A DNA stretch of 37,711 bases from a candidate division Zixibacteria bacterium CG_4_9_14_3_um_filter_46_8 (GTDB lineage: Bacteria > Zixibacteria > MSB-5A5 > UM-FILTER-46-8). Location of the stretch: positions 1-37,711 of the forward strand of contig PFXJ01000129.1 of NCBI GenBank assembly GCA_002791595.1, written 5' to 3'. This document shows, in pieces, positions 381-719 of this stretch; positions within the stretch are counted from its first letter, which is position 1; every line of letters starts with the position of its first letter. Position numbers and translations under genes: made by a program. Below the pieces are notes generated by a model. The model had not been told where the DNA came from. It made no database searches and saw only the letters and a list, made by a program, of their open reading frames with translations.

Positions 381-557
381 GGCGTTCTCCCATCCTTGCA
401 AATACGGGCTCATGGGTTTACCATGTCCCAGGCGACTGTTCGGGTTATTGCCAAAGTATGCGACGTCGGATCCAGCTACCCACGGGCTCTTGGTGGCCCA
501 AGGTCGGGACGATCTCGACGCCGCTTCGCTGTCCTTGGCCGCGGCCAAGGACAGCGA
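381..557 (-). ncRNA. Candidate IS110 bridge RNA in the non-coding end upstream of the transposase
   Basis: Minus-strand RNA order: perfect hairpin (526-557), stem 516-524/460-468 enclosing a loop with CCCGACCT (rc of 501-508 region) and GTGGGTAG (rc 476-483), then a second stem-loop around 411-425. Matches the published IS621-type layout (5' stem-loop, target loop, donor loop). Ends approximate. Confidence 0.6.
526..557. repeat. 32-bp perfect palindrome TCGCTGTCCTTGGCCGCGGCCAAGGACAGCGA
   Basis: Direct reading; each base pairs with its mirror base. Confidence 0.95.
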
Positions 558-605
558 GTTATCTCTCTTCGAATGATAGGATACCATATTAGTAGCCAAG
601 ATACA

Positions 606-719
606 AGGTCGGGTTCAGAGTCCCCCCGATAAAATCGGGGGGACGAGAAACCCGACAATAATAGAACATCTTGTCGGGTTTCTCACGCCGACTGCGTCGG
701 CGTTCAGAACCCGACCTAC
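606..719. repeat. Dispersed palindromic intergenic element, copy R1 (AGGTCGGGTTC...GAACCCGACCTAC)
   Basis: 11-bp terminal inverted repeat 606-616/707-717; nested hairpins GTCCCCCCGAT/ATCGGGGGGAC (620-630/634-644), GAGAAACCCGACA/TGTCGGGTTTCTC (645-657/672-684), CGCCGAC/GTCGGCG (686-702). Confidence 0.85.

Follow-up and report, generated by a model that had tools for sequence, protein, structure and literature searches.

The window analysed here, a contig of 37,711 nucleotides from a candidate division Zixibacteria genome, begins on its minus strand with a truncated recombinase gene and a non-coding stretch that stops at a dispersed repeat, and it raises the question whether this stretch encodes an RNA that specifies the repeat as an insertion target. 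The junctions in the same genome and the relatives in other genomes, described below, indicated that the window very probably starts within an IS110-group element of the IS621-like kind, cut so that its left end is present. The non-coding part of this end would encode a predicted bridge RNA whose guides specify a repeat foot, the repeat being a REP-like palindrome of the host (Table 1).

Recombinase and predicted bridge RNA at the contig start

The reading frame starting at position 380 was open for 126 codons up to the contig end, and its product generated a hit on PF01548 (E=9e-19; 68 bits vs a cut-off of 29). Among solved structures (PDB), the fragment matched ISCro4 (6.7e-15) and IS621 (6.2e-10). 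It was the only IS110 recombinase N-terminus (PF01548) found in the genome, and the C-terminal Tnp domain PF02371, which carries the catalytic serine, generated no match in the genome search; the window contig stops before that domain. A complete relative in genome G049 aligned over 300 aa to the IS621 and ISCro4 recombinases, and the full-length relative matched the IS621 recombinase in PDB with E=5e-38. Between the element edge at 605 and the start codon at 380 lie 225 nt of non-coding sequence, which make up a long left end ahead of the recombinase gene, and on the contig that carries a right end (C92, see below) the recombinase stop codon is followed by a short right end. In the window the non-coding RNA region precedes the recombinase gene, in keeping with the IS110 arrangement that a first-pass annotation of the sequence had proposed; in IS1111 this region is downstream.

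Table 1. Features at the start of the window, in window coordinates. A slash marks the junction between core and element.
Feature	Position	Strand	Remarks
IS110-group element, left-end portion	1-605	-	Cut by contig start; left edge 605 adjoins core CT
IS110 DEDD (RuvC-like) recombinase, N-terminal 126 aa	3-380	-	PF01548, PDB matches
Right donor guide (RDG) AUUUGCAAG	395-403	-	For donor CTTGTAT; IS621-type discontinuous pairing
Donor-loop apical stem-loop CATGG-TAAAC-CCATG	411-425	-	By fold
Left donor guide (LDG) ACAGUCGCC	431-439	-	Fits right element end ACAGTCGCT on C92 except last base
Target-loop stem, 3′ arm	460-473	-	Compensatory changes in relatives
Putative handshake guide nucleotide C	475	-	Faces donor position 7 (G)
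Right target guide (RTG) GUGGGUAG	476-483	-	Complement of CTACCCAC; C92 right junction CT/ACCCAC
Target-loop apical stem-loop GGGC...GCCC	484-499	-	By alignment and fold
Left target guide (LTG) UCCCGACCU	501-509	-	Core copy 501-502; fits flanks of both copies
Target-loop stem, 5′ arm GCGGCGUCG-A-GAUC	511-524	-	Pairs with 460-473; compensatory changes in relatives
5′ stem-loop of bridge RNA	526-557	-	Perfect 32-nt palindrome: 14-bp stem, 4-nt loop; by fold
Core dinucleotide CT, left junction	606-607	-	CCCGAC-CT/TGTATCTTGG in both copies; CT/TGTA in most relatives
Left target CCCGACCT, partly occupied host-repeat foot	606-613	-	Identical to LTG positions 501-508
Host REP-like composite repeat GGTCGGGTTC...GAGAAACCCGAC...GTCGGGTTTCTC...GAACCCGACCTAC	606-719		Other foot CTAC 716-719 free

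The predicted bridge RNA is about 175 nt long (557 to 383, minus strand) and lies upstream of the recombinase as in IS621, with the 5′ stem-loop, target loop and donor loop in the order of an IS621-type bridge RNA; covariation was weaker for the donor-loop stem than for the target-loop stem. The first-pass annotation had named the 32-nt perfect hairpin, the GGGC/GCCC hairpin and the CATGG-TAAAC-CCATG stem-loop, which were present, and a 9-bp stem (516-524 with 460-468) with one G-U pair on the minus-strand RNA, which held and was found to be lengthened by GAUC/GAUC beyond a bulged A. Relatives carry hairpins of other sequence at the position of the 5′ stem-loop. A search of Rfam with the bridge RNA yielded no family match.

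The loop sequences behind the proposed guides were also located as annotated, CCCGACCTTG at 499-508 and again at 604-613, and GTGGGTAG (minus strand) at 476-483. The LTG is identical to the top strand of the left target and the RTG is complementary to the top strand of the right target, both spanning the core, as in IS621. The LDG and RDG fit the element's own ends as in IS621-type elements, apart from the last core base of the LDG (ACAGUCGC, ending ...CGCC, vs ACAGTCGCT on C92, ending ...CGCT). In IS621, the RDG pairs through A157-U158 and C162-G165, with U159-U160 flipped out and G161 facing T (G161:T; PMC11208158), and the window RDG shares its pattern AU-nn-G-CAAG, so that it would pair with CTTGTAT in the same discontinuous way.

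Host repeat and element junctions in the same genome

Eleven exact AACCYGACCTAC feet were found unoccupied in the genome, several of them as inverted pairs about 105-120 bp apart around GAAACCCGAC...GTCGGGTTTC. The repeat family with the occupied foot ends in ...AACCYGACCTAC and is followed by non-repeated sequence. This family resembles, by its sequence, a REP/BIME-like dispersed palindrome with a GTAG foot, GTAG being the 5′ foot of REPs in many bacteria (PMC2817692); intergenic placement of the repeat was checked at the window copy. Five Y1_Tnp matches were obtained in the genome, and none of the five was seen beside the AACCYGACCTAC family. One of them, a Y1-type (RAYT-like) transposase match on another contig of this genome (L180, G000 C84, near 3625), lies between GTAGGGTGGGTC...GACCCACC repeats and is possibly a RAYT/REP unit of the host.

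The annotation had read from the guides the target CCCGAC-CT-ACCCAC, equated it with the outer end of the repeat, and cited CCCGACCTAC at 710-719 and CTACCCAC at 11221-11228. Both sequences are present, but the second belongs to a different REP-like variant at 11143-11228 (GTAGGTCGGAGTCTTGACCCCGAC ... GGGGTCAAGACCCCTGCCTAC), which is followed by CCAC and therefore ends in CTACCCAC without the left target. ACCCAC as a part of the repeat was rejected, as the feet end at CTAC and the following bases vary; the CTAC of the right target comes from the host repeat (GTAG foot), and the CCAC beyond it is single-copy flank absent from the 11 free feet. The predicted target agreed with the junctions on contigs C108 and C92, but of its right half only CTAC lies within the repeat.

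A second left end was located at the edge of contig C108 (C108:1-79), reading CCCGACCT/TGTATCTTGG and beginning with TGTATC, in another copy of the same host repeat. The left ends of the window and C108 are identical over 79 bp, and the LTG CCCGACCU is identical to both left flanks (C111, the window copy, and C108). These placed the element end at 605/606 with core CT, where the annotation had put it, and supplied the other copy at the same target that it had called for. Right ends were searched for in the genome with the pattern ACAGTCG...CTAC, in which only the first two of the bases after the core (AC) are fixed. One was found, at the edge of contig C92 (ACAGTCGCT/ACCCACATTAGC), behind the last ~50 codons of an IS110 recombinase. 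The CT core is thus present at both types of junction, as CCCGAC-CT on the left (C111, C108) and ACAGTCG-CT on the right (C92). The bases after CT on C92 are ACCCAC and match the RTG at 6/6 positions, the distal junction predicted by the annotation, exact in the one instance found. In the 11 free feet, the four bases past CTAC matched CCAC at 0 or 1 position vs 4/4 on C92, and this single junction suggests that the longer guide, including the RTG beyond CTAC, is read.

The genome contains no complete copy of the element, since the contigs break within it, and it is presumed that the one right end and the pair of left ends come from the same kind of element. In genome G001 of the same family, the EutN homologue follows 18 bp after a BMC shell gene in a DeoC/BMC operon. 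In the window, the repeat and IS110 end (605-1047) are located directly upstream of an EutN/CcmL gene, and the gene order in G001 raises the possibility that the repeat and element split the DeoC/BMC operon here. From this synteny the right flank of the window copy is expected to carry a BMC shell gene, and C92 has none. Therefore, C92 was not tied to the window copy or to any particular left junction, is not claimed as the right end of the window copy, and is probably the end of another copy.

By analogy with IS621, we infer that the window element would be expressed, form a complex, pass through a circular intermediate and be catalytically active. The recombinase would bind the bridge RNA, and the element would circularise, so that the donor loop (LDG/RDG) could read the circle ends ...ACAGTCG-CT-TGTAT.... 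The target loop would read both target strands, the bottom one at CCCGAC-CT and the top one at CT-ACCCAC. Strand exchange at the CT core would then place the element between the CT and AC of the repeat foot.

Relatives and the agreement of guides with flanks

A DNA search showed that further families of the class also carry this RNA region, and a covariance model (R1) was built from 11 sequences. Compensatory changes were observed at 12/22 predicted pairs of the target-loop stem among the 11 relatives, in line with the conservation of stems that the annotation had expected among related IS. R1 found the RNA in 19 of the 136 genomes of the class, the phylum-level search covering the same 136 genomes, and, across 94 sources searched, at 80 places; among these sources are records with KSB1, Desulfococcaceae, Blastopirellula and Hyphomicrobium in their titles. 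A second, more distant bridge-RNA clade in the class (L160-L165, L167-L169) has an RTG ...GUAGA and donor CGGTAT and is mostly located at hairpin feet ending in CCT, with a left guide in L167 that misfits the flank. The nucleotide that follows the RTG, which in IS621 acts as the handshake guide, varies with the donor base just ahead of the core: it is C if that base is G, and A if it is T, as in this second clade. In Hyphomicrobium, a stretch of about 4 kb at locus L037 contains one bridge RNA twice and another, distinct IS110 bridge RNA, which suggests nested or clustered insertions in repeats.

For relatives with an RTG ending in GUAG, the LTG was set against the six bases that precede the CT core in 21 distinct guide-flank pairs. 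Mean identity was 5.05/6 vs 3.19±0.23 in shuffled pairs, and 0/20,000 shuffles were as high; as the elements are related and not fully independent, the shuffle is not a strict probability and the significance is somewhat overstated. The signal was mostly at positions -4 to -2, and guide and flank mismatched in some relatives (L167, 1/6; L069, 2/6). Some relatives without GTAG also have an LTG that fits the flank (L028, 6/6; L063, 5/6). Thus, the match between loop and flank noted in the window goes beyond chance, given the compensatory changes in the target-loop stem and the recurrence of guide-flank identity with other letters.

On the right side, flanks started with AC at all 22 of the 22 recovered GTAG-group junctions, by construction in those found via the CTAC pattern, the others having been sought without it. 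The boundaries of relatives were picked by motif (CT/TGTA; ACAGT..CTAC), so that the core and AC are in part given by the choice of boundary. Agreement with the RTG past AC was modest across relatives (p=0.01 over four positions). Left-flank hairpins with a stem of ≥7 bp were present at 20/32 GTAG-group elements vs 3.2% of random sites and 4/20 relatives without GTAG, and the hairpin left flanks of the GTAG group are, as far as sequence can tell, feet of REP-like palindromes. Fixation of GUAG by the RNA scaffold was considered and rejected, because in some relatives the two letters ahead of the conserved AG are not GU; GUAG is therefore not forced by the scaffold and goes with REP-like targets. 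The relatives give the impression of elements specialised on REPs, in which the RTG GUAG fits the constant GTAG foot and the LTG follows the host-specific stem.

Two IS110 copies in one KSB1 genome (OFTM72), L005 at ~3807-4781 and L006 at ~3808-4781, are about 91% identical over the compared part. Their non-coding ends are nearly identical, and two of the few differing positions are adjacent letters of the LTG. The LTGs of L005 and L006 each fit their own flank.

Alternative explanations and relation to known systems

The likeness between loop and flank could be a coincidence or a local duplication if the protein itself recognised the DNA structure of the hairpin foot. The target is palindromic in most GTAG-group relatives, and some HUH transposases recognise REP structure. 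Such recognition leaves aside that guide letters vary with the flank from element to element, that the two KSB1 copies differ by two guide letters that suit their respective flanks, that the fit of both guides has the same strand polarity as in IS621, and that the LTGs of some non-GTAG relatives (L028, L063) fit as well, and we regard it as exceedingly improbable. The LTG might instead have been copied from the flank after insertion, by capture or by slippage between direct repeats, the match being then a result and not a cause of insertion. LTG and flank are indeed direct repeats about 105 bp apart, and the change of guides in step with flanks between close copies such as L005 and L006 would be expected from copying too. 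However, copies with an identical guide lie at several loci per genome, each beside the target of that guide (three in G141, four in G142, two in G017 and two in G000), which fits guide-directed insertion, and the right guide fits in the opposite polarity; copying from the flank is therefore very improbable.

The bridge RNA architecture could also be real in a window copy that no longer moves. The cut contig contains the reading frame only in part, and the copy number is low, with two left ends found. Against this, the 79-bp identity of the two left ends suggests that the element spread recently, no stop interrupts the 126 aa of the recombinase that are present and the guides still fit, which makes a dead relic unlikely. 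Guide-directed insertion by an element of the IS110 group thus remains the preferred explanation of the locus.

IS621 of E. coli (IS110 family) and its bridge RNA were described by Durrant et al. 2024 (PMC11208160) and Hiraizumi et al. 2024 (PMC11208158), and insertion of IS110 elements into REPs was already known from IS621 and others (PMC11208160, PMC1525189). Like IS621, the window element has a predicted bridge RNA ahead of its recombinase gene, built of a 5′ stem-loop, a target loop and a donor loop. The two also have in common a homologous recombinase, the CT core, the right target CTAC and hence the GUAG right guide, and insertion at the ...CCTAC foot of REP elements. The window element differs in the LTG, which has CCCGAC where that of IS621 corresponds to the E. 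coli REP stem, in the left donor ACAGTCG and in a matched RTG of 8 nt vs 4, and it belongs to a separate lineage in a host far from E. coli. The closest solved recombinase, by recombinase sequence, is the ISCro4 bridge recombinase (PDB 9t56). Site-specific insertion into REPs was also reported, before guide RNAs were known, for ISPpu9, ISPpu10, ISPa11, ISPsy8, ISRm19 and ISRm22, which are different elements of Pseudomonas and Sinorhizobium (Tobes and Pareja 2006, PMC1525189). In IS110/IS1111 seekRNA elements (Nat Commun 2024, PMC11187229), a guide RNA from the non-coding region fits both target strands, and guide and target change naturally between relatives. Redirection there involved relatives of about 72% protein identity (PMC11187229), whereas the guide change between L005 and L006 involves ~91%-identical copies in one genome.

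Taken together, the element is a new IS110/IS621 bridge-RNA lineage, and its mechanism is not new. The novelty may lie in breadth: in several phyla, numerous lineages combine a fixed half-guide, GUAG, that fits the REP foot with a second half-guide that changes along with the stem. We hold the arguments evenly balanced on whether these form a cross-phylum IS110 lineage specialised on REP palindromes via a split guide, with a fixed RTG GUAG for the GTAG foot and a fast-changing LTG re-tuned to the host REP stem, sometimes within one genome. If true, split-guide elements would exploit the REP/RAYT system, which would offer them predictable and harmless landing sites in non-coding DNA. The bridge RNA and its 14-bp target were predicted from the raw letters alone, and as junctions elsewhere in the genome confirmed the predicted target, this way of reading guides works far from E. 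coli. The relatives supply many natural guide/target pairs, include close copies that differ in their guides, add a second combination of donor and handshake base, and are useful for understanding the natural retargeting of RNA-guided recombinases and for choosing new bridge recombinases.
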